From contig NZ_LT629799.1 of assembly GCF_900105785.1 (NCBI RefSeq), forward strand, positions 806,001 to 870,000: a stretch of DNA of 64,000 bases, read 5' to 3'. Shown piece by piece: positions 19,968 through 39,829 of the stretch (the first letter of the stretch is position 1; each line of letters starts with the position of its first letter). The notes under the pieces were generated by a model that was not told the DNA's origin, did no database searches, and saw nothing but the letters and a program-made list of their open reading frames with translations. Both the position numbers and the translations under genes were made by a program. Source of the stretch: Microlunatus sagamiharensis (GTDB lineage Bacteria > Actinomycetota > Actinomycetes > Propionibacteriales > Propionibacteriaceae).

Positions 19968-21682
<1,715 letters not shown>

Positions 21683-21843
21683 GCTTGCTTCTTCCTGCAG
21701 TGAGGACCTGGACGGAGACGGACGGACTGCTGCCGGGGGACCTGCCCGAACCGCCGTCGTGGCGGCAGGGGAGGATTGCGACTCGAACTCTGCTGGTCGC
21801 GTGTTGCACCGGCGGTGCCGTCGGTTACGGCGGCATGACAGTT

Positions 21844-21870
21844 CTCACGCGTTCGTGACGGACGCGTTTC
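21844..21870 (-). promoter_or_regulatory. GlnR-like binding box upstream of amtB
   Basis: On the minus strand GAAAC (21870-21866), six bases, GTCAC (21859-21855), six bases, GTGAG (21848-21844) reproduce the 11-base rhythm of actinobacterial GlnR sites (GTNAC and GAAAC half-sites separated by n6). Two half-sites are good and the third is degenerate. GlnR is known to activate amtB-glnK-glnD in nitrogen limitation. The exact promoter was not resolved. The rest of the gap between amtB and galE shows no other clear element. Confidence 0.6.
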
Positions 21871-21924
21871 ACGTGTGAGGTCGCGCCGGACTCCGGTCCG
21901 CGACCGCTCGAGAGAGGCGGCGGC

Positions 21925-22905
21925 ATGGCCTGGCTGGTCACCGGAGGAGCGGGCTACATCGGCTCGCACGTGGTGCGCGCGTTCCGCGAGGCGGGCGAGG
22001 AGGTCGTCGTGATCGACTCCCTCAGCAGCGGCCACGCCGGCTTCGTGCCCGACGACGTGCCCTTCGTGCGCGGCACGATCCTCGACGGCGACCTCGTGCG
22101 GCACACGCTGCGCGACCACGCCGTCTCCGGCGTCGTCCACCTCGCCGGCTTCAAGTACGCCGGCGTCTCGGTGAGCAGGCCGCTGCTGACCTACCAGCAG
22201 AACGTGACCGGAACCGCCACGCTGCTCGAGCAGATGGACGCCGAGGGAGTCGGCCGGATCGTCTTCTCCAGCTCGGCGGCCACGTACGGCACCCCCGACG
22301 TCGACCTCGTCACCGAGGAGACGCCGACGCACCCGGAGTCGCCGTACGGGCAGAGCAAGCTGGTCGGGGAGTGGTTGATCGCCGACCAGGCGCGGGCCGC
22401 CGAGCTCGCCGGGGGGACCCTCGCCCACACGTCGCTGCGCTACTTCAACGTGGTCGGCTCGGCGACGCCGGACCTCTACGACACCAGCCCGCACAACCTC
22501 TTCCCGCTGGTGCTGCAGATGCTGCAGCGCGGCGGCACCCCGCGCATCAACGGCGACGACTACGATACCCCCGACGGGACCTGCGTGCGCGACTACGTCC
22601 ACGTCGCCGACCTCGCGCACTCCCATGTGGTGGCGGCGCAGGCGCTGGAGTCGGGACGCCCGCTGGAGCCCGTCTACAACCTGGGCAGCGGCGACGGCGT
22701 CTCGGTCCGCCAGATCATGGACGTCGCCGCCGAGGTCACGGGCATCGACTTCACCCCGGAGGTCGCCCCGCGCCGGCCCGGCGACCCGGCTCGCATCGTC
22801 GCCTCCGGCGAGCTCGCCGCCCGCGACCTGGGCTGGGAGATGCGGCACTCGCTGCACGACATGGTGGCCAGCGCGTGGGCGGCGCAGCAGCGCCACTCCG
22901 GCTGA
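21925..22905 (+). CDS. galE: UDP-glucose 4-epimerase
   Basis: This 326-residue extended short-chain dehydrogenase interconverts UDP-glucose and UDP-galactose. The NAD-binding TGGAGYIG is at about residues 6-13. The catalytic Ser lies in FSSSAATYG and the Tyr/Lys pair in SPYGQSK. RYFNVVGS and CVRDYVHVADLA are further GalE signatures. A GAGAGAGG ribosome site precedes the ATG. It is divergent from amtB and stands alone; it may supply UDP-galactose to the cell-surface polysaccharides made elsewhere in the window. Confidence 0.93.
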   Translation: MAWLVTGGAGYIGSHVVRAFREAGEEVVVIDSLSSGHAGFVPDDVPFVRGTILDGDLVRHTLRDHAVSGVVHLAGFKYAGVSVSRPLLTYQQNVTGTATLLEQMDAEGVGRIVFSSSAATYGTPDVDLVTEETPTHPESPYGQSKLVGEWLIADQARAAELAGGTLAHTSLRYFNVVGSATPDLYDTSPHNLFPLVLQMLQRGGTPRINGDDYDTPDGTCVRDYVHVADLAHSHVVAAQALESGRPLEPVYNLGSGDGVSVRQIMDVAAEVTGIDFTPEVAPRRPGDPARIVASGELAARDLGWEMRHSLHDMVASAWAAQQRHSG

Positions 22906-22973
22906 GCCAGGGGCCCGCGCACTAGGCTCGCCCCGGGTCGCGCCACGACGGCGCGCCAGCGAGGAGGCACAGC

Positions 22974-23333
22974 GTGAGCAACGTGGTCGAGGTCGGCGAC
23001 ATCCGGGACTGGCAGGGCCTGTCGGTGGTGGACGCGACCGGCTCCAAGATCGGGTCGCTCGAGGGCGTCTACTTCGACACCTCCACCGACCAGCCGGCCT
23101 TCGCCAGCGTCAAGCGCGGCGTACCCGCCAAGCTCGTCTTCGTGCCCCTCGCCGGGGCGACGGTCAGCCCCAAGCAGGTCCGGGTCACCACCGACAAGAA
23201 GACGGCCAAGGACGCCCCCGCCATCGACACCGACGGCGAGCTCACCTCCGAGCTCGAGCCGACGGTCTACAGCCACTACGGGCTCACCTACGAGCGCGGC
23301 GCCACCGGCGAGCGCCGCCTGGGCCGTCGCTGA
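22974..23333 (+). CDS. PRC-barrel domain protein
   Basis: This 119-residue protein has an N-terminal PRC-barrel (about residues 10-80, with WQGLSVVDATGSKIGSLEGVYFDT and VFVPLAGATVSPKQVRV). The polar tail has a SHYGLTYERG motif, typical of actinobacterial stress-related PRC proteins. No catalytic residues are expected; such domains bind proteins or RNA. AGGAGGC precedes the GTG start at good spacing. It lies between galE and a membrane protein, with no clear functional link. Confidence 0.82.
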   Translation: MSNVVEVGDIRDWQGLSVVDATGSKIGSLEGVYFDTSTDQPAFASVKRGVPAKLVFVPLAGATVSPKQVRVTTDKKTAKDAPAIDTDGELTSELEPTVYSHYGLTYERGATGERRLGRR

Positions 23334-23370
23334 CGCCGCTCCTCGGGCCGACCGTCGAGGGCGGTCGGCG

Positions 23371-23967
23371 GTGACCGGGCGCAGGGTCCTGCTCGGCCTC
23401 GACCTGCTCGCCAAGGCCGCGCTGGTCGTGCTGCTGCTGGTCGCGCTGGCCCACCCCGACCTCGCGAACCTCAAGGCCAAGGGTGCCGGGCTGCGGCTGG
23501 TCATCTACCCGCTGGGCGCCTTGGCGGTGCCGATGTGGTGGTGGCTGCAAGGACGCCGGGCTTGGGCCGGACGGCGCTTCCCCTGGGGCGCCGACCTGCT
23601 CGTGACGCTGCCGTGGCTGTCGGACCTGCTGGGCAACCGGTTGGACTTCTTCGACACGGTGACCTGGTGGGACGACGTCAGCCACTTCGGGCACTGGCTG
23701 CTGCTGACCGCCGGGGTGCTCGCGGCCTGGGCGCCCGGCCGGCGGATCGGTGCGGGCGCGCTGATCATGGTCGGGCTCGGCTTCGGGGCGACGGCGGCGG
23801 TGCTCTGGGAGCTGGGGGAGTACGCCGCCTTCATGCGCTTCCTCCCCACGTACGCCTACGCCTACCCCGACACCCTCGGCGACCTGACGCTCGGGACGAG
23901 CGGTTCGCTGGTGGCCGGCCTCCTCGTCGCCGTCCACCGCCGCGTACGCCCGCCCGTCCGCGACTGA
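23371..23967 (+). CDS. multi-helix membrane protein (YjdF/DUF2238-like)
   Basis: This 198-residue integral membrane protein has about five or six helices (for example residues 7-27 and 41-58, then around LLLTAGVLAAWAP and ALIMVGLGFGATAAVLWELGEY). The helix with WWDDVSHFGHWLL and the ELGEYAAF segment resemble the DUF2238/YjdF group, where conserved Asp, His and Glu lie in the membrane. The function is unknown. It starts with GTG at 23371, 37 bases after the PRC-barrel gene, so the two may be cotranscribed. Confidence 0.75.
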   Translation: MTGRRVLLGLDLLAKAALVVLLLVALAHPDLANLKAKGAGLRLVIYPLGALAVPMWWWLQGRRAWAGRRFPWGADLLVTLPWLSDLLGNRLDFFDTVTWWDDVSHFGHWLLLTAGVLAAWAPGRRIGAGALIMVGLGFGATAAVLWELGEYAAFMRFLPTYAYAYPDTLGDLTLGTSGSLVAGLLVAVHRRVRPPVRD

Positions 23968-23975
23968 GTGCGAGA

Positions 23976-24076
23976 ACGCTCCCTGCGCCTGTCGAAGGGC
24001 CTCGAAGAGGTTGGCGTTCTTGCAGCACGGAGGAAGGCCGACCCGTCTAGGGCCCTTCGACAGGCTCGGGGAGCGT
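23976..24076. repeat. REP-like interspersed palindrome, copy 1
   Basis: Two 26-base arms (23976-24001 and 24051-24076) are reverse complements at 24 of 26 positions, around a 49-base centre. The outer part reads ACGCTCCC and the inner part CCTGTCGAAGGGCC. The same core recurs at 40698-40735. It looks like an extragenic palindromic repeat family. The remaining bases between the membrane protein gene and the leuS leader hold nothing else recognisable. Confidence 0.75.
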
Positions 24077-24142
24077 CCCCCGTGCACCTCGGCGAGGTCG
24101 GAAGCATTCCTGAACCTCGACGGCCCGCGCCGCGGGGCGGTC

Positions 24143-24148
24143 TAGACT
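24143..24148 (+). promoter_or_regulatory. -10 box of the leuS leader, leaderless start
   Basis: TAGACT at 24143-24148 is followed after six bases by the ATG of the leader peptide. This places the predicted transcription start at or next to the start codon. No good -35 box was found at the expected distance. Confidence 0.55.
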
Positions 24149-24154
24149 GCGGGC

Positions 24155-24181
24155 ATGTCCGGGACGCTCCTGCTTACCTAG
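24155..24181 (+). CDS. leuS leader peptide, eight residues with three Leu codons
   Basis: ATG TCC GGG ACG CTC CTG CTT ACC TAG encodes MSGTLLLT. The three consecutive leucine codons (24167-24175), the stop just before a pair of hairpins and the location ahead of the leucyl-tRNA synthetase gene are the marks of a transcription-attenuation leader. It has no ribosome-binding site, which fits translation from a leaderless transcript. When charged tRNA-Leu is scarce, the ribosome should pause here and favour read-through into leuS. Confidence 0.72.
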   Translation: MSGTLLLT

Positions 24182-24237
24182 CCGCGCGGCGCACGCTGCG
24201 CGGCTGCCCCTCGTGCCGTCTGGCAGAGGGGTTTTTT
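24180..24237 (+). terminator. leuS attenuator: upstream hairpin plus intrinsic terminator
   Basis: Hairpin A pairs AGCCGCGC (24180-24187) with GCGCGGCT (24198-24205). The terminator pairs CCCCTC and TGCC (24207-24217) with GGCA and GAGGGG (24222-24231), followed by TTTTTT (24232-24237). A true U tract is rare in this GC-rich window. An alternative pairing of GCACG (24191-24195, loop of A) with CGTGC (24212-24216, terminator stem) could act as antiterminator. That pairing is short and is inferred. Confidence 0.75.
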
Positions 24238-24271
24238 CATGCCCGGACCGCAGAGGACGAGGAGATCGACC

Positions 24272-26815
<2,544 letters not shown>

Positions 26816-26826
26816 CCCCGATCAAG

Positions 26827-26867
26827 ACCGGCTCGGTCCCTCCCACCTCGGGGAGGACCGGGCCGGT
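26827..26867 (+). terminator. probable terminator hairpin after leuS
   Basis: ACCGGC and CGGTCC on the left pair with GGACCG and GCCGGT on the right, interrupted by a T/G pair position, with a short C-rich/G-rich inner stem. No U tract follows. It begins about 11 bases after the leuS stop. Confidence 0.5.
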
Positions 26868-26913
26868 CGACGTGTGCGTCGGGGTCAGGACGAACCTCAG
26901 GATCCGCCCAATG

Positions 26914-26982
26914 TTGAAGGCTCAACCATCCCTGCGCTGGTGTAGAGCCGTTGACAACGGTGTCCAATGGTTGAAGCGTCAA
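26914..26982. promoter_or_regulatory. three TTG/CAA dyads upstream of the metzincin gene
   Basis: TTGAAGGCTCAA (26914-26925) and TTGAAGCGTCAA (26971-26982) are both perfect TTGA-N4-TCAA palindromes. Between them, TTGACAACGGTGTCCAA (26951-26967) is an imperfect dyad whose first six bases also form a -35 box. The cluster is less GC-rich than its surroundings and looks like a set of operators. The spacing differs from the LacI sites of the rhamnose operon. No -10 box could be fixed with confidence. Confidence 0.5.
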
Positions 26983-27029
26983 TCTTCTGAGGAAGCCCCG
27001 CCCGGGGCCGTGACCCCCAGGAGACCCCG

Positions 27030-27632
27030 ATGTCCGCCGCCCGCCCCGTCCCCGTCCTCGCCCTGCGCGTGGTCCTCGTCCTCGTGGCCCTGGTGCTCAC
27101 CGCCACGGTCTCCGGCCGCGGCACCGCGGCGGAGGCTGCACCGACGGCCGGCACGACGGCGAGCTCGACGCAGAACGTGGGCCCGGCCCTCGGGTGGGCC
27201 CAGGACGTCGTCTACGTGCAGGACGACGCGTCCTCCCGGTGGCCCGTGGCGGCGGCCACGAAGGCCCTGAGCAAGGGCTCGTCCCTGCGCCTGGTCCTGG
27301 TCGCGCGCTGCCCTGCGCCGGGCGCGGACGGCGCCCCCGTGCAGTGCATCCGGGTGTCGTCCAAGGACCTCGGCGGCGGGACGCTCGCCGGCACCACCGA
27401 CTGGACCTTCGTCAAGAGCACCAACAAGCTGAGCACGGCCACCGTCCAGCTCAACGACCGCTGGGCCAAGCACGCCTCGTACGCCGACCGGCTGAACATC
27501 GCCGAGCACGAGCTCGGCCACGGTGTCGGGCTGCCCCACGTCAAGCGCACCTCGAGCATCATGAACGCCGTCGCCCACGGCCGGACGAAGCCGGACGCCG
27601 GGGACCTGCGCGCGCTGAAGGCGCGCTACTGA
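27030..27632 (+). CDS. secreted metzincin-type (matrixin-like) zinc protease
   Basis: This 200-residue protein has a signal peptide (hydrophobic core at about residues 10-27, VPVLALRVVLVLVALVLTAT, then AEAAP). The catalytic zinc site is the complete metzincin motif HELGHGVGLPH near residues 160-170, followed by the Met-turn SIMN. These establish the fold family; the substrate is unknown. The start at 27030 follows CAGGAG. It is a small, single-domain secreted enzyme with no recognisable prodomain. It stands alone behind a cluster of palindromic sites that suggests regulated expression. Confidence 0.85.
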   Translation: MSAARPVPVLALRVVLVLVALVLTATVSGRGTAAEAAPTAGTTASSTQNVGPALGWAQDVVYVQDDASSRWPVAAATKALSKGSSLRLVLVARCPAPGADGAPVQCIRVSSKDLGGGTLAGTTDWTFVKSTNKLSTATVQLNDRWAKHASYADRLNIAEHELGHGVGLPHVKRTSSIMNAVAHGRTKPDAGDLRALKARY

Positions 27633-27672
27633 GCGGTGCGCCTCGGGCTCTGCGCGGGCGCGCCCGTGGGCC

Positions 27673-28686
27673 TCAGGAGGTCCCGGCCAGGGTCGCCAGC
27701 AGGCCGAGGTGGTCGCTGCCGGGCATCCGCACCGTCTCCAGCGACGTCGCGGTGAGCCGGTCGTCGACGAGGACGTGGTCGATCGGCAGCAGCGGCGGGA
27801 AGGCCCGGTCCGCCGGCCAGGTCGGCACCCACCCGGCCCCCACGAGGTCCGCGGCGCTGCGCATGCCGTCGGCGCGCAGCCGCTGCAGCGGGGCGTGGTC
27901 GTCGATCGCGTTCAGGTCCCCGGCGACCACGAGCGGCATCGAGAGGTTGTCGCGCACCGCGGTCTCCAGCGCGGCGTGGTCGCCGGCGAAGGCACCGCCC
28001 GCGCAGTACGGGTTGCACGGGTGGACGCCGAGCAGGCGGAGCGGGGAGCGCCCGGGCACGTCGACCGTCATCACCCACTGCGTCGCGAGCGAGCCGGGGA
28101 GCGGTTCGGCGTCGGTCAGCGGGTAGCGGGAGAAGATCGTCGTGTCGCTGGGCGGGCCGCCGAGGGCGCCGACCGCGTACGGGAAGCGTGCGTCCCACCC
28201 CGGCGTCTGGAGCCGCTCGAGGAAGCCGCGGTCGGTCTCGCTGAGGACCACCACGTCGGCGCCGGAGGCGACCTCGCCGAGGCGTTCGGTGTCGGCCCGG
28301 CCGAGGTAGACGTTCTGGGCGAGCACCGTGAACGACGGGCCGACGACCGGCCGGTCGTCCGGCACGAAGAACGGGGCCACCCAGCTGACGTGCAGCGCCG
28401 TCAGCGCTGCGACGAGGACCGTCAGGAGGGCGACGGGTGCGCGCCGCCGGCTCAGGACCAGCGCGACGACCAGCAGCAGCAGGGCGAGCAGGTAGAGCGG
28501 CAGGCCGTACGGGACGAAGGACGCCAGCAGCGCGCCCAGGTCGTCGGTCGGCGCGCCGACGCGGAGCAGCGTCGTGCCCACGGCGGGCACGAGCAGCAGC
28601 AGCGCCGCCACGAGCGTCGCGCGTCGCCGGCGAGGGCGGGTGGGCGTGCTGTCCCAGGCCGGGCGTTCGGCGGTCCCGGCCCTCAC
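27673..28686 (-). CDS. membrane-anchored endonuclease/exonuclease/phosphatase-family protein
   Basis: This 337-residue protein has three N-terminal membrane helices (about residues 25-45, 54-78 and 84-107) followed by an EEP domain facing outward. Family residues seen are Asn in LAQNVYLG, Glu in VLSETDRG, the GDLNAIDDHAP motif, IDHVLVDD and a final SDHLGLL. EEP enzymes cleave phosphodiester or phosphoester bonds; the substrate (nucleic acid, lipid or inositol phosphate) cannot be told. Its GTG start overlaps the PH-GNAT gene stop in GTGA, so the two form one transcription unit. Confidence 0.83.
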   Translation of the reverse strand: MRAGTAERPAWDSTPTRPRRRRATLVAALLLLVPAVGTTLLRVGAPTDDLGALLASFVPYGLPLYLLALLLLVVALVLSRRRAPVALLTVLVAALTALHVSWVAPFFVPDDRPVVGPSFTVLAQNVYLGRADTERLGEVASGADVVVLSETDRGFLERLQTPGWDARFPYAVGALGGPPSDTTIFSRYPLTDAEPLPGSLATQWVMTVDVPGRSPLRLLGVHPCNPYCAGGAFAGDHAALETAVRDNLSMPLVVAGDLNAIDDHAPLQRLRADGMRSAADLVGAGWVPTWPADRAFPPLLPIDHVLVDDRLTATSLETVRMPGSDHLGLLATLAGTS

Positions 28687-29642
28687 GCGGCCCGGCGTGC
28701 CCGGCGGCGCAGCTGCTTAGTCATGCGGATCTCCTGCGGGTTCGGCTGGTAGCGGCACGGCCGGCGCTCGTCGGTCTCGGCCCAGCCGTGGCTGCGGAAG
28801 AAGGCCCGCGCCCCCGCGTTCCCCTCCAGCACCCACAGCGTGGCCTCGGGCTCGCCGCCGTCGTACATCTCACGAACGGCGAACTCGAGGAGTGCCGAGC
28901 CGTAGCCCCGGCGCGTCCGGTGGGGCGCGATCCCGAGGTGCAGCACCTCGCCGGAGGAGGAGAAGGCGACGTAGCCGAGCGCGTCCTCCTCGCGCTCGAG
29001 GACGAAGACCCGCGCCGACGGGTCGTGCAGGAGACGCCGCCAGCGGCTCGTGACCTCACCGACCGGGTAGGGGTGCTCCTCCGGCGGGAAGAGGTGCTCC
29101 AGGTGCTCCTCGCCCGCCGCCCGCTCGATCCGGGTCAGCAGCCGGGACTCGTCGGGGCGGGCTCGGCGGATCCGCAGCCCGGTCTCGGCGTCCTCCAGGG
29201 GCGGGTGGCGCAGCTCCAGCTCGTCGATCAGCTCGTGGGCGACCGCGTCGGCCCGGGTGAAGCGGCCCCGGCGCAGCGAGAAGTTCGACTTCTGCACGCA
29301 CCACGCCTCGGCCACGCCGTCCTCGGAGCCGACCACGAGGCCGTTCTCCCCGGGCGCCACGAGCGTGATGTCGTGCCAGTCGAAGGAGCGCGACGAGAAC
29401 GGGTTGCGCACGTGCACCCCGTCGTCGTCGGCGACCAGCCGCGGGTGCAGCCCGAAGCGCCAGGCGTAGAGGAGGGCGAGCAGCGCGAGGAGCCCCAGCG
29501 CGCCGGGGATCCACGGGGACCCTTCGCGCCGGTAGATCAGGTACGCGAGTCCCGCGACCGCGGCGGCGGCGAGCACGGCCAGCGCGACGACGGCGGTCAG
29601 CGTCGCGGGTGCAGCACGCCAGACGCGCCTCGGACCCACCAC
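28683..29642 (-). CDS. fusion of a bacterial PH domain with a GNAT acetyltransferase
   Basis: In this 319-residue protein the first part has two membrane helices (about residues 10-32 and 41-60). A bacterial PH-like domain follows, with RLVADDDGVHVRNPFSSRSF and DWHDITLV. From about residue 165 a GNAT domain follows with RIRRARPDESRLL, VLHLGIAPHRTRRGYGSALLEFA (the acetyl-CoA loop) and WVLEGNAGARAFFRSHGW. Both parts are in one open frame. The start is a GTG at 29642 behind GGAAGG; a second GTG follows directly. Such PH proteins normally stand alone in actinobacteria, so the fusion is unusual. The target of acetylation is unknown. Confidence 0.78.
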   Translation of the reverse strand: MVGPRRVWRAAPATLTAVVALAVLAAAAVAGLAYLIYRREGSPWIPGALGLLALLALLYAWRFGLHPRLVADDDGVHVRNPFSSRSFDWHDITLVAPGENGLVVGSEDGVAEAWCVQKSNFSLRRGRFTRADAVAHELIDELELRHPPLEDAETGLRIRRARPDESRLLTRIERAAGEEHLEHLFPPEEHPYPVGEVTSRWRRLLHDPSARVFVLEREEDALGYVAFSSSGEVLHLGIAPHRTRRGYGSALLEFAVREMYDGGEPEATLWVLEGNAGARAFFRSHGWAETDERRPCRYQPNPQEIRMTKQLRRRARRAA

Positions 29643-29898
29643 TGATGCGACACCTTCCCGACACCGACCGTTCAGCCGGACTGTAACGGTCGACGCCCCC
29701 GCTGCGTGGCTTCTGACGCCCTGCGGACGAAGCGTCCGGACCTGCACGGGCGCAGCACAGGGATCAGGTCGGCGACGAGGTTCAGGTGCGGACGGGCCGC
29801 GGGCCGGTCGTCCACAGGGCTGGTCGGGGAGGCGGTGCGCCGTCCACAGCCGCCCGTGCGGGCGGCACGGCGGGTGCGCACGTCCGTACAAGACCGGT

Positions 29899-30864
29899 GT
29901 GGCCCGACGACACCCTCCGCCCGACCCCGAGACCGCCGCCCTCGCCCGGGCGCGGCTGGCGCGTCTCCTCGGAGGTGGGGACGTCGGGCCGCGACGGGCG
30001 GCCGGGGTGCTCGACGACGACGCGACCGACCGTGTTCCTCGGGCCGCGGGGGTGCCGGGGGTGCAGGACGACGGTGCCGGGTCGTCGGAGCCCGGCCGCC
30101 CGGTCGGACCCGAGGACCTGGAGCCGGCCCGGCGGTTCACGCCGTGGCACCTGGCGGTCGTCGCCGCGGTCCTCGTGGTCGGGGTCGTGTGGGGCGGCTG
30201 GTCCTGGCTCCAGGCCCGGCCGGAGGCGGTCGCGGCGCCGAGCGTGGTGCAGAGCGCCGGTCCGACCAGCGCACCCTCCGTCCTGCCACCGTCTCCGGCA
30301 CCCGGTGCGGGCTCGGCGGGTCCGGGGCCCGCCGGCCAGGGGGAGGCGAGCGCCGCCGGTCCCGTGGTGCACGTCCTGGGCGCCGTGCGGAGCCCCGGCC
30401 TCGTGCGCCTCGAGCCGGGCGCCCGGGTGGAGGACGCCATCGAGGCCGCCGGGGGCCTGCGTCGCGACGCCGACCCCGACGAGCTCAACCTCGCCCAGCC
30501 GCTGGAGGACGGCGTGCAGGTCGTCGTCGGCACGACGAAGCACCCGGCGGGGGAGGTGCGGGTCGCCGGTGCCGGTCCGGGTGGGTCGGGCTCGGGGGGT
30601 TCGGGCTCAGGGAGCTCCGGCGGCTCGTCGGGCTCGTCCGGCTCGTCCGGGTCCTCGGGGGCCGGCACCGGCTCGGTGGTGGACCTCAACCGGGCGAGCG
30701 TCACCGAGCTCGACGCGCTGCCCGGCGTCGGACCCGTGACCGCGCAGAAGATCCTCGACTGGCGCGAGCAGCACGGCCGCTTCTCCCGCGTGGAGGAGCT
30801 GCAGGAGGTCGACGGGATCGGTCCGAAGACGTACGCGCGGCTCGCCCCGCACCTGCGGGTGTGA
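29899..30864 (+). CDS. comEA: competence protein ComEA, DNA-binding
   Basis: This 321-residue membrane-anchored DNA receptor has a cytoplasmic basic N-tail, one membrane helix (about residues 83-105), a Pro/Ala linker, and an SLBB domain (about 155-212, VVHVLGAVRSPGLVRLEPG). A Gly/Ser-rich linker of about 35 residues is followed by two helix-hairpin-helix motifs at the C-terminus (LNRASVTELDALPGVGPVTA). It binds incoming DNA and hands it to ComEC. The GTG start at 29899 has no strong ribosome site. The stop overlaps comEC in GTGA. The gap upstream, shared with the divergent PH-GNAT gene, shows no clear promoter. Confidence 0.92.
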   Translation: MARRHPPPDPETAALARARLARLLGGGDVGPRRAAGVLDDDATDRVPRAAGVPGVQDDGAGSSEPGRPVGPEDLEPARRFTPWHLAVVAAVLVVGVVWGGWSWLQARPEAVAAPSVVQSAGPTSAPSVLPPSPAPGAGSAGPGPAGQGEASAAGPVVHVLGAVRSPGLVRLEPGARVEDAIEAAGGLRRDADPDELNLAQPLEDGVQVVVGTTKHPAGEVRVAGAGPGGSGSGGSGSGSSGGSSGSSGSSGSSGAGTGSVVDLNRASVTELDALPGVGPVTAQKILDWREQHGRFSRVEELQEVDGIGPKTYARLAPHLRV

Positions 30865-33212
30865 CCGCGGTCGTGGACGCGACCCCGGACGCGGGCGTCG
30901 CGCGCAGCGTGCACGACCTGCGCATGGTCGCGGTGGCCGCCGGAGCGTGGGCCGGGGCCGGGCTCGGGACGTCGGGCTCGGCGCTCGTGTGGGGCGCGGT
31001 GCTCGCCGTCGCGGCGCTGGTGGCCCTGGTGGCGTGGCGTCGTGGCTCGGTGCTGCTGGTCGCGGTGGCCGCCGCGCTCGCCGTGACGGGCGGGACGGGG
31101 GCCGTCCGGGCGGAGGTCCTCGCCTCCGGCCCGCTCGCCGGGCTGGCCGACGAGCGGGCCGTGGCCACGGTCGTCGTCGAGGTCCGCGGCGACGCCCGGG
31201 TGCACCCGGCGCAGGGCGTGCGCCCGGCCTACGCGAGCCTCCCCGGCCTCGCGGTCGCGGTGGACGGCCGAGGACGGGCCTGGCGGGTCCGCACGCCCGT
31301 GCTCCTGGTGGTCAGCGGCGCGGCCGTGGACGGCTGGAGCCGCTGGCCCGTCGGCACCCGGCTGCGGGCGGAGGCGCGGCTGGAGCGCGCCGACCCCGGC
31401 GACCCGTACGGCGCGGTCCTGCGCGTGCGAGGAGACGCGACGGTCGTCCGCGCGCCGCCCGCCTCGCTGCGGCTGGTCGAACGGGTGCGCCAGGGTCTGC
31501 GCACCTCGGTCGCCCACCGGGCGCCCGAGCCGCGCGCGCTCGTCCCGGCGCTCGTCCTGGGCGACACGTCGGCGCTCACCCCCGAGGTGGTGGACGACTT
31601 CCGCACCACCGGGCTCTCGCACCTCACCGCGGTGTCCGGGGCCAACCTGACGCTCCTGCTCGCCTTCTGCCTGGTGCTGGCGCGCTGGGTCGGGGTGCGC
31701 GGGCGGGTGCTGCGCGTCCTGGGCCTGGCCACGGTCGTCGTCTTCGTCGGGCTGTGCCGCACCGAGCCGAGCGTCCTGCGGGCGGCGGCGATGGGCCTGG
31801 TCGCGCTCGCGGCGCTGGGCGCCGGCGGGCGCGCGGCCGGGATGCGCCACCTCGCCGTCGCCGCGACCGGCCTGCTGCTGCTCGACCCCTACCTCGCCCG
31901 GTCGGTCGGCTTCGCGCTGTCGGTGCTGGCCAGCGGGGGCATCGTCTGGTGGGCGCGACCGTGGAGCTCGCTGCTCGGGCGGTGGCTGCCGCGCCTCGTC
32001 GCCGAGTCGGTGGCCGTGCCGCTCGCCGCGCACCTGGCCACGCTGCCCGTGGTCGCGGCGATCAGCGGCCGCGTCAGCGTGTCCGGGCTGCTGGCAAACG
32101 CGGTGGCCGGCCCGTTCGTCGGCCCGGCGACGGTGCTGGGGTTCGCGGCGGCCGCCGCCTCGCTGCTCAGCGCTCACCTGGCCGCGGTGCTGGGGTTCGG
32201 GGCCGCGTGGTCGGCGCAGCCGGTCCTCTGGGTGGCGCACGCGGGCGCCGCGCTGCCCGGGTCGGCCCGTGACTGGCCGGCCTCGCCCTTCGCGCTCGGC
32301 TGGCTGGGTGCCGCTGCGCTGGCGGCCGGGCTGGTCATGCCGTTCGTGCTCGTGCGGCGCCGCTTGGTGGTCGCGCTCGCGCTGCTGATGGTCGTGGCCC
32401 TCGTCCTCCCGCCGCGCCGGCCGGGCTGGCCGCCGCCGGGCTGGGCGCTCGTGGCCTGCGACGTGGGTCAGGGCGACGGCCTCGTCCTGCGGGCGGGCCC
32501 GCACGACGCGGTCGTCGTCGACACCGGCCCCGACCCGGCCGTCCTGCAGCGCTGCCTGGCTGAGCTGGGCGTGCGGCGGGTGCCGCTGCTGGTGCTGACG
32601 CACTTCCACGACGACCACACCGGCGGGCTCGACGGCGTCCTCGGGACCCGTCCCGTCGGGCAGGTCTGGGTCTCGCCGCTCGCGTCGCCGAGCGGGGAGG
32701 CGACCCGGGTGCGAGCGGAGGCCGCCCGCCTCGGGGTGCCGGTGGTCACCCCGGCCGTGGGCGCCGGCGGCAGCGTCGGCGAGGTGGCGTGGCAGGTCCT
32801 CGGGCCGCTGGCCGGACCGGCCGCGGACGTGGCCGCCGAGGACGAGTCGGGCCGGGAGAACGACGCCAGCCTGGTGGTCATGGCGACCGTGGGCGGCGTG
32901 CGCGTCCTGCTCACCGGGGACGTGGAACCGGCGGGCCAGGAGGCCATCGTCGCCGCGGGGGCCGACCTGCACGCGGACGTGCTCAAGGTGCCCCACCACG
33001 GGTCGTCACGGCAGGACCAGGCGTTCCTCGCCGCGACCCACGCCCGGGTCGCGGTCGCCAGCGCCGGGGTCGACAACGACTACGGCCACCCGGCGCCGAG
33101 CACGGTCGCACGCCTGCGTGGGCTCGGGATGCAGGTCCTCGCCACCAACGAGCACGGCAGCGTCGCGCTCGAGGCGAAGGACGGGCGCCTGCTCGTGGCG
33201 ACCGAACGGTGA
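30861..33212 (+). CDS. comEC: DNA uptake channel protein ComEC
   Basis: This 783-residue polytopic protein has an N-terminal domain of several helices with a DUF4131-like OB region and a central competence domain (LSHLTAVSGANLTLL, then the CRTEPSVLRAAAMG stretch). The C-terminal metallo-beta-lactamase domain contains LTHFHDDHTGGLDG near residue 585 and a late LKVPHHGSSRQD. It forms the channel for single-stranded DNA; the C-terminal domain may degrade the other strand. The GTG at 30861 overlaps the comEA stop, which argues for this start over a Met about 20 codons later. The pair followed by holA is the usual actinobacterial order, here interrupted. Confidence 0.92.
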   Translation: MTAVVDATPDAGVARSVHDLRMVAVAAGAWAGAGLGTSGSALVWGAVLAVAALVALVAWRRGSVLLVAVAAALAVTGGTGAVRAEVLASGPLAGLADERAVATVVVEVRGDARVHPAQGVRPAYASLPGLAVAVDGRGRAWRVRTPVLLVVSGAAVDGWSRWPVGTRLRAEARLERADPGDPYGAVLRVRGDATVVRAPPASLRLVERVRQGLRTSVAHRAPEPRALVPALVLGDTSALTPEVVDDFRTTGLSHLTAVSGANLTLLLAFCLVLARWVGVRGRVLRVLGLATVVVFVGLCRTEPSVLRAAAMGLVALAALGAGGRAAGMRHLAVAATGLLLLDPYLARSVGFALSVLASGGIVWWARPWSSLLGRWLPRLVAESVAVPLAAHLATLPVVAAISGRVSVSGLLANAVAGPFVGPATVLGFAAAAASLLSAHLAAVLGFGAAWSAQPVLWVAHAGAALPGSARDWPASPFALGWLGAAALAAGLVMPFVLVRRRLVVALALLMVVALVLPPRRPGWPPPGWALVACDVGQGDGLVLRAGPHDAVVVDTGPDPAVLQRCLAELGVRRVPLLVLTHFHDDHTGGLDGVLGTRPVGQVWVSPLASPSGEATRVRAEAARLGVPVVTPAVGAGGSVGEVAWQVLGPLAGPAADVAAEDESGRENDASLVVMATVGGVRVLLTGDVEPAGQEAIVAAGADLHADVLKVPHHGSSRQDQAFLAATHARVAVASAGVDNDYGHPAPSTVARLRGLGMQVLATNEHGSVALEAKDGRLLVATER

Positions 33213-33247
33213 GCGGTCCAGCGGAGGTCGGGTCGGTGGTGCGGTCC

Positions 33248-34693
33248 TCAGCGCGCGGCCGTGAGCCCGGTGACGGGGTCGAGCCGGAGCCGCCGGCTGC
33301 CGCACGTCAGCACGACGACGTCGCCGGGTTCACCGGGGGTCGTGGCAGCCGAGGCCGGGTCGGGCTGCCCGCCGGCGAAACGCGCGCGCACCTCCCGCTT
33401 GTCCCCGCAGACGAAGCGCCACAGGGCGGGGCCGCCGCGCAGCGGCACCGCGACGACCTGGTCGGCCGTGCGGTCGAAGCGGTTGGTGCCGGCGAGCACG
33501 ACGACGTCGCCGTAGCGGGCGCCCACGAGCGGGCGGGGCTCGCCGGCCGGGCCGAGGGAGCCGGACAAGCCCGTCGGGAGGCGGGGGAGCGTGGACCCGA
33601 CCGTGCCCTCGTCGTCGTCGGAGGACCCGGTTGGCCCGGGGCGGCGGAGCGCGACCGGCGACACGGAGACGCCGGTCTCGCTGGTCCCGACCTGGTGGTA
33701 GCCCGAGAAGGTCGCCACGGTGTCGCAGCCGGAGCCGCTGACCGCGACCGTCTGCGTCGGGGTGGCGGACGGCGCGTCGGCGGCGGGCGGGTAGACCCAG
33801 GTGGCGCAGGTGAAGTGAAGCTCCTCGACCGGGCTGCCGTAGCGCAGCTCGGTGACCCGCTGAGCCGCCACCGTCTGGGCCGTCCACCAGAGCTCGAGCA
33901 CCGCGACGACGCAGAGCGCGAGGGCGGCGTACCAGCGCCACCGGCGGCGGGCGCCCCGTGGCCAGCACTGGACGACGAGCCAGACGAGCACGCCGAGGAG
34001 GGCGCCGAAGAGCCAGAGCCGCACCGAGGCGGAGGTGAGCAGGGCAGCGAACCTCAACCCCTCGGTGTTGGCGGCGAGCGCCTGCGCCTCGCGGCGCAGG
34101 TCTGGCGCGAGGAGCCAGCGCCCGACGGCGAGCGGCCCGGGCAGCAGCAGCACCCAGGCGACCACGAGGACGGACCCCGTGCGGCTGGTGACGGGCCGGC
34201 GCGGCGCCAGTCCGGCGACCAGCGCGTGCGAGACTGCCCACGCGGTCGAGGTGAGCCACACCAGCAGCCCGATGACGGCGAGGGCGGTCGCGCCGGGGCC
34301 GGCCACCAGCTGGAGCAGCAGCGAGCCCAGGGCGACGAGCGAGCCGACCAGGGCGGGCAGCAGGAGCCAGACGCGGCCGAGGTGCTGGCCGCGCCGGACC
34401 AGGAGCGTCAGGGCGGCGCTGCAGACGAGCAGGAGCCCCGCGCCGAGCGGCCGGTCGAGCAGCGACAGGGGTCCGAGCTGCTGCAGCCACCAGTCGTGGG
34501 CGGGGAGCGCCCCGGTCTCGGGCACGCCGCGACCGACGACGACGAGCCACTGGACGCCGAGCAGCAGCGCCAGCGGGACCGTGGCGGCGAGCCGGACCGT
34601 GCGTCGGACCTGCGCGAGCTCATGTCCTGGCCACGGGGACCCGAGGACGGGCTCGACCTCGCGCTTGCTCGCGTACGCGTGGGTGAGGGTCAC
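33248..34693 (-). CDS. membrane protein with extracellular C-terminal domain, function unknown
   Basis: This 481-residue protein has about seven hydrophobic helices in its first 240 residues. They are followed by a long extracytoplasmic part with a Thr/Pro-rich stretch, Cys pairs (FTCATWVYPP and SGSGCDTVATF; RFVCGDKRE and VVVLTCGSRR) and a segment resembling the first blade of a PQQ-type propeller (RRLRLDPVTGLTAAR). The protein ends right there, so relatives may be longer. Its GTG start overlaps the stop of the upstream gene (34690) in GTGA, forming a two-gene unit on the strand opposite comEC and holA. Confidence 0.7.
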   Translation of the reverse strand: MTLTHAYASKREVEPVLGSPWPGHELAQVRRTVRLAATVPLALLLGVQWLVVVGRGVPETGALPAHDWWLQQLGPLSLLDRPLGAGLLLVCSAALTLLVRRGQHLGRVWLLLPALVGSLVALGSLLLQLVAGPGATALAVIGLLVWLTSTAWAVSHALVAGLAPRRPVTSRTGSVLVVAWVLLLPGPLAVGRWLLAPDLRREAQALAANTEGLRFAALLTSASVRLWLFGALLGVLVWLVVQCWPRGARRRWRWYAALALCVVAVLELWWTAQTVAAQRVTELRYGSPVEELHFTCATWVYPPAADAPSATPTQTVAVSGSGCDTVATFSGYHQVGTSETGVSVSPVALRRPGPTGSSDDDEGTVGSTLPRLPTGLSGSLGPAGEPRPLVGARYGDVVVLAGTNRFDRTADQVVAVPLRGGPALWRFVCGDKREVRARFAGGQPDPASAATTPGEPGDVVVLTCGSRRLRLDPVTGLTAAR

Positions 34694-35445
34694 GGCGTCG
34701 CGGCCGGCCGGACCGGCAGGGTCAGGGCGCCGCCCGGCAGGGCTGCGGGCACGGCCGGTCGGCCGTGGCCCTCGGTCGGCCAGTCGACGTCGACGACCTC
34801 GAGCGCCGTGCGTCCGAGGGCGCCGCCGAGCAGGACGTGCGGCAGCGACTCGTCGAGGACGACGCCGAGGCTCAGGTCGGTGAGGTCGGCCAGGGTGCGC
34901 CGCCGCACGGCGTCGGTCGTGCGGGCCGACAGCTCCCGGGCGAGCCGGTCCAGCAGCCGCTCGCCGAGACCGTCGAGCGTGTCGGGTCCCCCGGGTGCTC
35001 CCGGGCGTGGCGGTCCTCCGTCGCCGGCCGCGTCGCGCAGGCGCGCGTCGGTGTCCACGAGGTCGTGCAGCGCCGAGGGTGCGTCCACGAGGGCGACCCC
35101 GAGGAGCAGCTCGACCTGGTGCACCGTCCGGGCGTCGAGGGTGTCGAAGGGGCCCAGGCGCAGGCGGACGTCGACCGGCTCGTGGGTGAGGACCGCGTAC
35201 GAGGCGCGGGTACGGGGGAGCAGCGGCGGCAGCACCAGGCTGCCGGCAGACAGCACCTCGACGGGTGCGCCCTCGCGCTGCAGCAGCACCGAGGTGCGCT
35301 CCGCGACGTAGCCCACCGTGTCGACGCGGTGGGCCGCGCTGACGAGCCGGGTGGGGAGGGCCGGGACGGCTCCGGAGGCGGCCTCCGCGTCCGCGCGTCG
35401 GCGCAGGACCCGCAGGAGCAGGACCTCCAGCAGCGGCGCGACCAC
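34690..35445 (-). CDS. hypothetical protein, possibly SPFH/Band-7-like
   Basis: This 251-residue protein is not firmly recognised. It starts with a short hydrophobic helix (VAPLLEVLLLRVLRRR). A beta-rich stretch follows that looks Band-7-like (RTSVLLQREGAPVEVLSAG, then SYAVLTHEPVDVRLRL and VHQVELLLGVALVDAPS), and then a helical part. If correct, it would be a membrane-tethered scaffold for the membrane protein encoded next. The GTG at 35445 is chosen because GAGGGGG precedes it. The stop overlaps the next gene. The resemblance is by eye only. Confidence 0.6.
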   Translation of the reverse strand: MVAPLLEVLLLRVLRRRADAEAASGAVPALPTRLVSAAHRVDTVGYVAERTSVLLQREGAPVEVLSAGSLVLPPLLPRTRASYAVLTHEPVDVRLRLGPFDTLDARTVHQVELLLGVALVDAPSALHDLVDTDARLRDAAGDGGPPRPGAPGGPDTLDGLGERLLDRLARELSARTTDAVRRRTLADLTDLSLGVVLDESLPHVLLGGALGRTALEVVDVDWPTEGHGRPAVPAALPGGALTLPVRPAATP

Positions 35446-35486
35446 GACGACCCCCTCGTCGGACGGACCCGACCTCCGGCGAGCCA

Positions 35487-35494
35487 GGTATACA
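35487..35494. promoter_or_regulatory. overlapping divergent -10 boxes
   Basis: GGTATACA reads as TATACA (35489-35494) toward holA and as TATACC (35492-35487) toward the minus-strand hypothetical gene. It is one of the few TA-rich spots here and would force the two transcription units to compete. No clear -35 boxes were found. Confidence 0.4.
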
Positions 35495-35559
35495 CCGGCC
35501 CGACGGCACGCGCCCGGTCCTGGCGTCCGAGGGCGGTGGGCGTGTCGGTGGGTCCTGGC

Positions 35560-36585
35560 ATGCTGTCGCCCGTGGCCGCGTCGAGAGCTGGGTCGAGATC
35601 TGCTCCCCGGGCCGGGGCGCGGTCCACGGGGTCGCCGTTCGGCCGCACGACCCTCGTCGCAGGGCCCGAGGGGCTGCTGGCCGACCGCGCCGTCGCCGAC
35701 CTCCTGGCCCGCGCCCGCAAGGAGTCGCCCGAGGTCGAGGTCAGCAGCACCGAGGCCGCCTCGCTCGACGGGTCCCGGCTGACCGAGCTCAGCGGGTCGT
35801 CGCTGTTCGCCACCCGCAAGGCCGTGGTGGTCACCGACCTCGCGAACCTCTCGCCCGACGTCGCGCCCGACCTGCTCGACGTCGTCAGCGCCGCGCTGCC
35901 CGACGTCGCCCTGGTGCTCGTCCACGGCGGCGGGCAGAAGGGCAAGGGCGTCCTCGACAAGCTCAAGGCCCTCGACGTGGTCGTCGTCGACTGCCCGCCG
36001 GTCAAGACCTGGGAGCTGCCGCAGTTCGTGGCCGCCGAGATCCGGCACGCGGGCGGGACGGCCGACGCCGGGGCCGCGCAGGCGCTCGTCGACGCGGTCG
36101 GCGCCGACCTCCGGGCGCTCGCCGCCGGGGCCTCGCAGCTCGTCTCCGACACCGAGGGGCACGTGCGCGCGGAGGACGTGCGGCGCTACTTCGGCGGCCG
36201 GGCCGACGTCACGAGCTTCGCGGTCACCGACTCCGTGCTGGCCGGCAACACGGGTGCGGCGATGGAGCAGCTGCGCTGGGCGCTGACGACCGGGGTGCCG
36301 CCGGTCCTGGTGACGAGCGCGCTCGCCTCCGGGATCCGTGGGCTCGGCAAGCTCCTGGGGGCCCCGCCCGGGCAGCGCGACGTGGACCTGGCCCGCGAGG
36401 TCGGCGTCCCGCCGTGGAAGCTCAAGACCCTCCGGGCGCAGGCCCGCGGCTGGGACTCCCGGGGGCTCGCGGTCGCCCTGCGCGCCGTGGCGACCGCCGA
36501 CGCCGACGTCAAGGGTGCGGCCGAGGACGCGGCGTTCTCCCTGGAGCGCGCCCTGCTCGCGGTGGCGGCGGCCCGCCGGAGCTGA
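35560..36585 (+). CDS. holA: DNA polymerase III subunit delta
   Basis: This 341-residue clamp-loader subunit opens the beta sliding clamp. After a basic, low-complexity N-tail, the AAA+-like domain has RTTLVAGPEGLLADRAVADL and LFATRKAVVVTDLANL. The C-terminal helical collar domain has GTAMEQLRWALTTG-like sequence (residues about 228-245) and the family ending SLERALLAVAAARRS. The ATG at 35560 includes the basic tail; a GTG four codons later is possible. It faces rpsT across a strong hairpin. Confidence 0.92.
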   Translation: MLSPVAASRAGSRSAPRAGARSTGSPFGRTTLVAGPEGLLADRAVADLLARARKESPEVEVSSTEAASLDGSRLTELSGSSLFATRKAVVVTDLANLSPDVAPDLLDVVSAALPDVALVLVHGGGQKGKGVLDKLKALDVVVVDCPPVKTWELPQFVAAEIRHAGGTADAGAAQALVDAVGADLRALAAGASQLVSDTEGHVRAEDVRRYFGGRADVTSFAVTDSVLAGNTGAAMEQLRWALTTGVPPVLVTSALASGIRGLGKLLGAPPGQRDVDLAREVGVPPWKLKTLRAQARGWDSRGLAVALRAVATADADVKGAAEDAAFSLERALLAVAAARRS

Positions 36586-36640
36586 ACGCCCGGACGCGTG
36601 CCGAGGCCGAAGCGCTCGGCGCGAGGTCCGGACGCACGAC

Positions 36641-36669
36641 GTCCCGGCCACCCATGGGGTGACCGGGAC
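36641..36669. terminator. bidirectional terminator between holA and rpsT
   Basis: GTCCCGG and CACCC (36641-36653) pair with GGGTG and CCGGGAC (36657-36669) with one C/A mismatch and a three-base loop. It sits between two convergent genes and can serve both strands. There is no U tract. Confidence 0.65.
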
Positions 36670-36699
36670 GACGGTGGAGCGTAAGGAGCGCGGGCGCGC

Positions 36700-36963
36700 T
36701 CAGACCAGGCTGGCCGCCTGGCTCGCGATGGCCGACTTGCGGTTCGCGGCCTGGTTGGCGTGGATGACGCCCTTCGAGGCGGCCTTGTCGAGCGCGCGGT
36801 TGGCGGCGCGAGCGGCCAGGGTCGCCTTCTCGACGTCGCCGGCCTCGGCGGCCTCGCGAAAGCGGCGGACGTGGGTGCGCAGGGCCGACTTGACGGCCTT
36901 GTTCTTCTGGCGCGCCTTCTCGTTCGTCTTGATGCGCTTGATCTGGGACTTGATGTTGGCCAC
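36700..36963 (-). CDS. rpsT: 30S ribosomal protein S20
   Basis: This 87-residue basic protein binds 16S rRNA in the small subunit. The N-terminus [20 protein letters not shown] and the later [11 protein letters not shown] and [13 protein letters not shown] are canonical. The start is a GTG (GTGGCCAAC), with no alternative in the right place. It is divergent from lepA, the conserved actinobacterial arrangement. Confidence 0.97.
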
Positions 36964-37042
36964 GGGGCGTCTGATCCTTGCGGGTGTGCGGAGCGGTCTG
37001 CTGGCAGAAGTCTGAGCGCCTGGCTCGCAGGCACGATCTGAC

Positions 37043-37072
37043 AGACTACCAGCGTGTCCCCGTGGGGCCCAA
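37043..37072 (-). promoter_or_regulatory. probable rpsT promoter
   Basis: On the minus strand TTGGGC (37072-37067) and TAGTCT (37048-37043) are 18 bases apart. This gives a 5' leader of about 75 bases before the rpsT GTG, long enough for the autogenous translational control known for S20. Confidence 0.5.
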
Positions 37073-37116
37073 CCTCGCGAGCGGCGGGGGTGCTGGGCCA
37101 GGCGTGGAATGATTCC

Positions 37117-38973
37117 GTGGTGATCCCTGCCCCGACTCCCGGCCGCACCGATCCCTCGCTGATCCGCAACTTCTGCATCATCGCGCACATCGACCACGGC
37201 AAGTCGACGCTGGCCGACCGGATGCTCGGGATCACGGGGGTCGTCGACGCACGCTCCGCCCGCGCCCAATACCTCGACCGCATGGACATCGAGCGCGAGC
37301 GCGGCATCACCATCAAGTCCCAGGCCGTGCGGCTGCCCTGGCGGCCCTCGACCGCCTCGGACGCGGACGCCCCGCACATCCTCAACATGATCGACACCCC
37401 GGGCCACGTGGACTTCACCTACGAGGTCTCGCGCTCGCTCGCCGCGTGCGAGGGGGCCGTGCTGCTCGTCGACGCGGCGCAGGGCATCGAGGCGCAGACC
37501 CTCGCGAACCTCTACCTCGCCCTCGAGGCGGACCTGCACATCATCCCGGTGCTGAACAAGATCGACCTGCCGAGCGCGCAGCCCGACAAGTACGCCGCCG
37601 AGCTCGCCGGGATCATCGGCTGCGACCCCGGCGACGTGCTGCGGGTCTCGGCCAAGACCGGGACGGGCGTCGACGCCCTGCTCGACGCCATCGTCGCCCA
37701 GGTCCCGGCCCCGGTCGGCGACCCGGACGCGCCGGCCCGCGCGCTGATCTTCGACTCCGTCTACGACACCTACCGCGGCGTCGTGACCTACGTCCGCGTG
37801 GTCGACGGCGAGCTGAACCAGCGTGAGCAGGTCCAGATGATGTCGACCCGGTCGACCCACGAGGCCCTCGAGGTCGGGGTCATCTCCCCGGAGCCGGTCA
37901 AGTCGCCCTCGCTCGGCGTCGGCGAGGTGGGCTACCTGATCACCGGGGTCAAGGACGTCCGGCAGTCGCGCGTCGGCGACACGGTCACGCAGACCTCGCG
38001 CCCCGCGACCCAGGACCTCGGCGGCTACAAGAACCCCAACCCGATGGTCTACGCCGGGCTCTACCCGATCGACGCCTCCGACTACCCCGAGCTGCGCGAG
38101 GCGCTGGACAAGCTCCAGCTCAACGACGCGGCGCTGACGTACGAGCCGGAGACCTCCGGCGCGCTCGGCTTCGGCTTCCGGATCGGCTTCCTCGGCCTGC
38201 TCCACATGGAGATCGTGCGCGAGCGGCTCGAGCGCGAGTTCAACCTCGACCTGATCTCCACGGCACCGAGCGTCGTCTACCGCGTCGTGCTCGAGAACGG
38301 CACCGAGCTGACGGTGACCAACCCGTCGGAGTACCCGACGGGCGGCAAGATCGCCGAGGTCTACGAGCCCGTGGTCAAGGCGACGATCCTCACCCCGGTC
38401 GACTTCATCGGCACGATCCTCGAGCTGTGCCAGACGCGCCGCGGGGTGCAGCACGGCATGGAGTACCTCTCGGCCGACCGCGTGGAGATCCGCTACACGC
38501 TGCCCATGGCGGAGATCATCTTCGACTTCTTCGACGCGCTGAAGTCGCGGACCAAGGGCTACGCGAGCCTCGACTACGAGCTGGACGGCGAGCAGGAGTC
38601 CGATCTGGTCAAGGTCGACGTGCTGCTGCAGGGCGAGCCGGTCGACGCCTTCTCCGCGATCGTGCACAAGGACAAGGCGTACGCGTACGGGCTGATGATG
38701 GCGGGCAAGCTCAAGCAGCTCATCCCGCGCCAGCAGTTCGAGGTGCCGATCCAGGCGGCCATCGGCGCCCGGGTCATCGCGCGCGAGACGATCAGCGCGA
38801 TCCGGAAGGACGTCCTCGCCAAGTGCTACGGCGGTGACATCACCCGCAAGCGCAAGCTGCTGGAGAAGCAGAAGGAGGGCAAGAAGCGGATGAAGATGGT
38901 CGGCCGCGTCGAGGTCCCCCAGGAGGCGTTCGTCGCCGCGCTCGCGACGACGGAGGCCGCGCCCAAGAAGTGA
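37117..38973 (+). CDS. lepA: elongation factor 4 (back-translocating GTPase)
   Basis: This 618-residue translational GTPase has all G motifs: AHIDHGKST (G1), RGITIK (G2), DTPGH (G3), NKID (G4) and SAKTG (G5). EF-G-like domains II, III and V follow, then the LepA-specific C-terminal domain ending [20 protein letters not shown]. Adjacent GTG codons at 37117 and 37120 are the likely starts because homologues begin just before the conserved [14 protein letters not shown]; a GTG at 37054 would add an unconserved extension. Confidence 0.96.
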
Positions 38974-38980
38974 GCCGCCG

Positions 38981-39739: not shown

Positions 39740-39829
39740 CCCTTCTGAGCCCGGCCCTCGCCCGCGACGACGAAGGCGTCGGACCAGAGCGCGGGCCGCG
39801 TCGGAGCGGAGCGACGACAGAAGACTCGC

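Follow-up and report, generated by a model that had tools for sequence, protein, structure and literature searches.

The leuS gene of Microlunatus sagamiharensis is preceded by a very short open reading frame, a hairpin and a U-tailed terminator, an arrangement that raises the question of whether transcription of a leucyl-tRNA synthetase gene is attenuated in response to leucine through a leader peptide translated from the very 5′ end of its mRNA. We addressed this question through computational analysis of the locus, of the 64,000-nucleotide stretch of contig NZ_LT629799.1 that contains it (hereafter, the window) and of leuS loci from related and distant genomes. The element is, with a probability of about 0.85, an attenuator through which a ribosome translating a leaderless leader peptide couples leuS transcription to leucine. 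Its component pieces, their conservation, the covariation of its stems, the fixed spacing of its promoter and its rare control codon are established here, and we put forward a more tentative model for the manner in which a stalled ribosome would prevent termination.

Organization of the element upstream of leuS

The leuS gene (24272..26815, plus strand) encodes a leucyl-tRNA synthetase that matches TIGR00396 with 916.9 bits (cut-off 548.4), and its ribosome-binding site, AGGAG, is located at 24260..24264. The remaining parts of the element lie upstream on the same strand. A −10 box, TAGACT (24143..24148), is followed after six bases by an eight-codon frame encoding MSGTLLLT (24155..24181; ATG TCC GGG ACG CTC CTG CTT ACC TAG), the start codon of which coincides with the predicted 5′ end of the transcript. 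The control codons CTC CTG CTT span 24167..24175 and the TAG stop codon occupies 24179-24181. Hairpin 1, of 11 bp (24180..24205), begins at bases 2-3 of this stop codon and is directly abutted by the terminator stem-loop (24206..24232), both stems being delineated by the minimum free energy (MFE) fold and by covariation, and a tract of six T (24232..24237) closes the element. The MFE fold reaches −47.4 kcal/mol (z −4.0), with none of 200 shuffled sequences being as stable. A sequence-only reading of this locus had described an eight-residue frame with CTC CTG CTT, a hairpin and a U-tailed terminator ahead of leuS, all of which we recover from the sequence and its fold; its remark that this is the clearest U-tailed terminator of the window is also borne out, since, apart from the T6 tract, neither strand contains a run of five or more T.

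A composite pattern combining TANNNT-N5..8-[AG]TG, a frame of 5-30 codons containing LL and a terminator at most 110 nt past the stop codon has a single occurrence in the window, both strands considered, which is the leuS site, and none in 20 Markov-1 controls. A generic promoter scan of positions 1-60000 returned no promoter-like site, and the leuS terminator does not appear in the output of a generic terminator scan of 20001-40000, probably owing to its bulge and long loop. Assignment to the T-box or to any other Rfam family was rejected, since no family matched the window at its gathering score; the six matches obtained at 24100-24300 fall far under that score and none of them is a T-box. 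Positions 23984-24073, in the interval that separates the upstream gene from the leuS promoter, contain an imperfect inverted repeat of CCCTTCGACAGGCTC. The 19-base pattern CCCTTCGACAGGCTCNGGG has 64 + 47 occurrences in the genome, and its reversed control has none.

Distribution of the element among leuS loci

The leuS gene was found in all 40 genomes of a sample of close relatives (in G007 as a weak match only), and 30 loci were taken for analysis; 29 of them are preceded by the −10 box, by a short LL-containing leader and by the hairpins, the exception being L021. A class-wide sample of 148 genomes, 69 of which passed the LeuS cut-off, contributed the upstream regions of 59 (four regions were already in the close set and six of family f23 were left out). 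Together with the 10 places remaining from the close sample, these form a further set of 69 regions, 26 of which present the pattern. The element hence precedes leuS at a minimum of 55 of the 99 loci (29 close and 26 further), a lower bound given that the scan demands LL, box and start and misses leaders like L199; the upstream stretches of L067 and L082 are shortened by contig ends. The 44 loci without the element comprise L021, which belongs to a genome of the same family (G022), and 43 of the 69 further loci. Positive loci span 13 families across the close and further sets, to which a phylum-wide search adds five more, and every one of the 55 leaders is followed by a U-tailed terminator. 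The alignment of relatives that had been suggested as a check on the sequence-only reading comes out in its favor, as the Leu codons and the terminator are conserved and the stems covary in the 55-leader set.

The phylum-wide search relied on R1, a covariance model that begins at the leader start codon, ends with the U tract and includes no promoter positions. On the window's own genome, R1 yields one site at 8e-16, with the next match at 0.26. Within the genus, it places matches before leuS in 19 of 20 genomes, most of which are training rows; leuS was not recovered in G007, where the sole match precedes cimA. Applied to 296 genomes of the phylum, R1 produced matches in 47. We inspected the best 30 of the 50 matches listed, and the 20 strongest all lie before leuS and have TANNNT 6-7 nt before the start codon (measured by script in 18 cases and by eye for L190 and L199). 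Two of these 20 come from genomes in the training set (G000 and G041) and the other 18 do not, and L180, L186 and L198 belong to another class. Nine of the 20 encode exactly MRAVRLLLSEPR, from which L193 and L194 differ by one residue, and in the strong match L199 the leader's only Leu codon is CTT. Leaders of the MRAVRLLLSEPR type precede leuS in 11 genomes of family f19 (E 7.6e-15 to 6.7e-13), a family that is not represented among the training rows and that its leader peptide suggests to be Streptomyces.

The leader pattern flagged 10 of 80 leuS loci in named genomes, mostly from distant phyla. R1 was also run on 72 loci, namely all 44 pattern-negative loci of the 99 and 28 of the 80 named ones, and scored strongly only at L102, L104, L106 and L107, each with a box at 6 or 7 nt, thereby confirming four of the ten. 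Two of the other six flagged loci (L120, L128, L140, L159, L165 and L175) were among those searched, L120 giving nothing and L165 a weak 0.0059; the remaining weak scores were 0.15 (L149) and 0.58 (L114). A leader common to L085 and the named locus L104 suggests that the window's order also holds Nocardioides. Since the box lies 6-7 nt ahead of the start codon in every strong R1 match, neither the phylum's 20 strongest matches nor the 72 loci yielded a leuS leader of this family with an extended 5′ region. In addition, L233 (G008:C1:5615715-5615810) precedes a second, divergent leuS and encodes a same-family leader, MRPAILLLRRPR, with TAATCT six bases before its ATG. The 55 leaders, 18 new ones from the phylum search and the four named-genome loci provide 77 natural leuS variants with which to address how 70S ribosome loading at the 5′ end keeps pace with RNA polymerase.

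Promoter spacing, control codons and stem structure

In the 55 leaders, which were chosen for LL and a −10 box with an allowed box-start range of 4-9 nt, the distance from TANNNT to the start codon is 6 nt in 36 cases, 7 nt in 18 and 9 nt in one, and the start codon is ATG in 45 and GTG in 10. The bases just 5′ of the box conform to a conserved TGCGC-like stretch (T 41, G 46, C 37, G 48 and C 34 of 55, from −5 to −1) from which the window's own sequence deviates, and no −35 box stands out upstream of the 55 leaders. For S. lividans, the available portion of PMC8079986 gives a mean of 6.3 bases between −10 box and transcript start, and a 70S route of leaderless initiation is described in the available text of PMC9031893. 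Because the 6-7 nt spacing is fixed (54 of 55 leaders) and the S. lividans leader is reported to be leaderless (PMC8079986), the window leader is probably transcribed leaderless, with a start predicted from the −10 spacing, which lends support to the mRNA start at the leader ATG postulated by the sequence-only reading.

The leucine runs of the 55 leaders total 148 codons (CTT 61, CTC 53, CTG 31 and TTG 3), and CTT is present in 54 of the 55. In leuS coding regions (30 genes, limited to the initial 2,400 bases counted from the match), CTT accounts for 6 of 1,892 Leu codons and CTG for 86%, and the window's leuS contains no CTT among its 68 Leu codons. The enrichment of CTT in the runs (61/148 vs 6/1,892) corresponds to a Fisher p of 3e-68, a value that ignores the kinship of the sequences. 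The hexamer CTCCTT appears in 40 of the 55 runs; CTT persists in 14 of the 15 that lack it, so the codon, rather than a base-pairing hexamer, seems to be kept. Under the usual wobble rules a single tRNA-Leu(GAG) reads both CTT and CTC, and the use of CTT fits stalling at a scarce, wobble-read codon.

Covariation was assessed on 54 leaders (L006 was dropped as a repeat of L005), which provide 53 distinct rows. Both sides have changed in 7 of the 11 pairs of hairpin 1 and in 5 of the 7 pairs of the terminator. Over the whole structure, 93.8% of cells pair, compared to 41-52% after a shift of one side by 1-3 columns, and none of 500 shuffles reaches the observed value; with the exception of one cell, the three outermost pairs of hairpin 1 are always G-C. 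A gap of 0-3 nt separates hairpin 1 from the terminator in 54 of 54 leaders, and one of 0-2 nt in all 11 f19 (Streptomyces-type) leaders, and MFE folds reproduce the 0-3 nt gap in 53 of 55, with a single helix in the other two. UG occurs 8-13 bases past hairpin 1 in 46 of the 54 leaders (mean 15.6 and maximum 26 in 1,000 shuffles), and at 10-11 bases in 40. A hairpin-stabilized pause is expected at 10-11 bases past the hairpin, and UG could mark such a pause; constraints on the terminator loop offer an alternative account of its position.

The effect of the ribosome on folding was analyzed with partition functions from which the bases under the ribosome, assumed to extend 12 bases past the first A-site base, had been removed. 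Across the 55 leaders, the terminator has a mean pairing probability of 0.90 in the absence of a ribosome; placing one at the last two Leu codons gives 0.95 and 0.92, and placing it at the stop codon gives 0.92. In these four states the probability falls below 0.5 in 3, 1, 2 and 2 of the 55 leaders, respectively, and the leaders concerned vary by case except for L014, where the script chose a different stem and the value is 0 throughout. The mean number of pairs upstream of the terminator decreases from 18.2 with no ribosome to 11.6, 8.6 and 4.2 as the ribosome advances, a drop that is partly trivial given the removal of bases under the ribosome.

Alternative explanations and proposed mechanism

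The element might be a mere terminator of the upstream gene (23371-23967) accompanied by a chance frame, and it does comprise the only stem of the window with a run of five or more T; we give this account virtually no credence, since at plus-strand loci the element stays with leuS while sequences farther upstream differ, and since conservation extends to the Leu codons, the promoter spacing and the two stems. It may also be argued that the leader is read from a longer transcript started upstream and that the −10 box is not a promoter. The lack of an outstanding −35 and the poor conservation of upstream bases beyond the TGCGC-like stretch are compatible with such a transcript, which is nevertheless made very unlikely by the 6-7 nt spacing of 54 of the 55 leaders, by the leaderless S. 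lividans orthologue reported in the available portion of PMC8079986 and by the six bases before the ATG, too few for a ribosome-binding site.

Other alternatives accept the leader and differ in what stalling brings about. In textbook attenuation, a structure formed upon stalling shares bases with the 5′ arm of the terminator and thereby excludes it. Precedents for this design come from Streptomyces leuS elements, termed classical and endowed with antiterminator and terminator hairpins in the accessible sections of PMC1262725, and from C. glutamicum ilvBNC, where adjacent hairpins overlap by a GCC trinucleotide according to those of PMC11857589. Equilibrium folding of the 55 leaders, however, revealed no conserved overlapping antiterminator sharing terminator bases: terminator pairing below 0.5 is confined to 1-3 of 55 leaders per ribosome state, and hairpin 1 and the terminator stand side by side, also in the Streptomyces-type leaders. 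Equilibrium folding could miss a transient structure, and we deem this form of attenuation unlikely. Translation attenuation, as proposed for the leuA LEU element, would instead have the CUCCUU run pair with the leuS ribosome-binding site until a stalled ribosome frees the site. The prevalent CTCCTT hexamer is complementary to AGGAG, a stem of this kind is present in the leuA LEU element (accessible sections of PMC1262725), and the run pairs with anything 3′ of the terminator at a mean probability above 0.3 in 44 of the 55 leaders. Pairing with the ribosome-binding site was computed for 47 leaders with an assigned leuS start, at least three of which are wrong (L008, L053 and L056, in the U tract), and exceeds 0.3 in 20 of them, compared to 16 of 47 in a CTG control. 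Its mean over these leaders is 0.32, against 0.25 with all-CTG runs and 0.21 with shuffled downstream sequence, and pairing with anything downstream behaves similarly (0.64 vs 0.50 and 0.52). With controls nearly as high, and a value of 0.00 in the window, pairing between the Leu run and the ribosome-binding site was rejected; translation attenuation, which also leaves the conserved U-tailed terminator without a role, retains but a remote chance of being correct.

Leaderless, ribosome-mediated leucine attenuation, the reading that we favor, could proceed as follows. RNA polymerase would initiate at the ATG of position 24155 or right beside it, and a 70S ribosome would load on the 5′ AUG. When charged tRNA-Leu is ample, the ribosome would reach the UAG in the foot of hairpin 1 and cover its 5′ arm; hairpin 1 would not form, the terminator would close and transcription would end before leuS. 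When charged tRNA-Leu is short, above all the CUC/CUU isoacceptor, the ribosome would stall at CTC-CTG-CTT, 5′ of hairpin 1, which would then form and allow leuS to be transcribed. Because no base overlap was found between hairpin 1 and the terminator, we tentatively propose steric competition between the abutting hairpins, as a hypothesis that may well prove incorrect. Termination requires the foot of the terminator to close against the RNA-DNA hybrid within the exit channel, which presumably lacks room for a second helix abutting that foot, and hairpin 1 might in this manner keep the terminator from closing; it may also serve as a pause hairpin. Against the favored reading as a whole stand the 44 of 99 leuS loci devoid of the element, the single Leu codon of L199 and equilibrium folding, which maintains the terminator at 0.90-0.95 with or without a ribosome, so that folding alone predicts no switch; moreover, the foot of hairpin 1 is already reached by the assumed ribosome footprint when CTT occupies the A site. 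The attenuator put forward by the sequence-only reading is supported as regards leucine attenuation; a base-sharing antiterminator of the textbook kind was not found. With no overlapping antiterminator visible, the locus poses a defined question: can a merely abutting hairpin prevent termination?

Sister elements and comparison with known systems

The next ten phylum matches of R1 (L200-L209), from other classes, precede genes for acetolactate synthase (ilvB, 7), 2-isopropylmalate synthase (leuA, 2) and prephenate dehydratase (1); their layout is similar, often with GTA CTT ATT before the stop region. In the window's genus, 13 further R1 matches were examined: 12 precede the citramalate synthase gene cimA (recognized by reading in G013, where the contig ends) and the remaining one precedes a second, divergent leuS. 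All 18 same-genus cimA loci with upstream sequence (L235-L252) contain ATT within the final five leader codons, then a hairpin and, 0-3 bases further, a terminator; among the Ile codons of leuS genes, ATT accounts for 13 of 761. In 16 of the 18, a box meeting the lax criterion NANNNT lies 6-7 bases before the leader start. From this layout, a putative isoleucine sister of the leuS attenuator precedes cimA, and our literature search retrieved no report of such an element. The cimA locus of the window's own genome (L250; G000, C1:1110959) has the leader VLTVVIIR, ending in ATC ATT CGC TAG, followed by a hairpin and an abutting terminator. Two further leaders were noted in that genome: MQHLLVRKRVV before ilvB (L215), with GACTCT six bases before the ATG and a T6 terminator identified by eye, and a leader beginning VASALGLRALILLRC before leuA (L219), with ATT CTC CTT and a GTG start 7 bases after TATGGT.

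These elements might reflect a general actinobacterial attenuator design devoid of overlapping antiterminator, in which a steric hairpin 1, rare U-ending codons (CTT, ATT) and a UG pause 10-11 nt past the hairpin would operate at leuS, cimA and perhaps ilvB and leuA, leaderless at least for leuS and cimA; we regard this generalization as speculative and open to considerable doubt. If it is true, the terminating ribosome removes hairpin 1, whose foot holds or follows the leader stop codon.

As in attenuators of the E. coli trp/leu type, a ribosome stalled on control codons would decide termination at leuS; the E. coli leaders have a ribosome-binding site and an overlapping 2:3 antiterminator, whereas neither a leader ribosome-binding site nor an overlapping antiterminator was found in the window. 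The C. glutamicum ilvBNC attenuator is leaderless according to the available text of PMC11857589, with control codons that include CUU, adjacent hairpin bases and a terminator, but its hairpins are said to share GCC and those of the window abut, with no shared bases found. Leaderless attenuators of mycobacterial cysteine operons are likewise known (Canestrari 2020, as cited in the accessible part of PMC13236596). With the leuA LEU element the window shares a leader frame with a leucine run, and the leuA leader of the same genome also has ATT CTC CTT. The LEU element differs in its pseudoknot and in its pairing with the leuA ribosome-binding site; the equivalent pairing at leuS is 0.00 in the window and little above controls in the 47 leaders.

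The nearest relatives are the leuS leaders of Streptomyces. The available sections of PMC1262725 report the prediction, in 2005, of classical leuS attenuators in S. avermitilis and S. coelicolor, and those of PMC8079986, in 2021, a leaderless leader with mapped starts before leuS in S. lividans (LeuL2, MRAVRLLLSEPR), followed by a hairpin and a uridine stretch. The coupling of leaderless translation to leuS attenuation, which the sequence-only reading had deemed unusual, was therefore already published for Streptomyces; for the window's own lineage, our literature search found no report of a leuS attenuator. Because R1 finds the LeuL2 peptide before leuS, sequence comparison places the window element in the same family as the Streptomyces leuS leaders. 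It lies directly before leuS, with a leucine-run leader and a homologous hairpin and U-tailed terminator, and its −10 spacing fits a leaderless start that is predicted only. Its classification follows homology to leuS leaders because the base-sharing antiterminator and terminator of classical attenuators were not found in the 55 leaders by equilibrium folding. LeuL2 and the window leader resemble each other in having a leucine leader before leuS, a start at the transcript 5′ end (predicted in the window), a hairpin and a U-tail, and the same R1 model matches both; they differ in that the Streptomyces leader has 12 codons, ends in LLLSEPR and has its stop inside hairpin 1, whereas the window leader has eight codons and its TAG at the foot of hairpin 1. 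To the known leuS attenuator our analysis adds a control codon that is nearly always CTT and a first hairpin that lies 0-3 nt from the terminator, with no base-sharing antiterminator found; it also indicates that leaderless leucine attenuation of leuS is not a peculiarity of Streptomyces.
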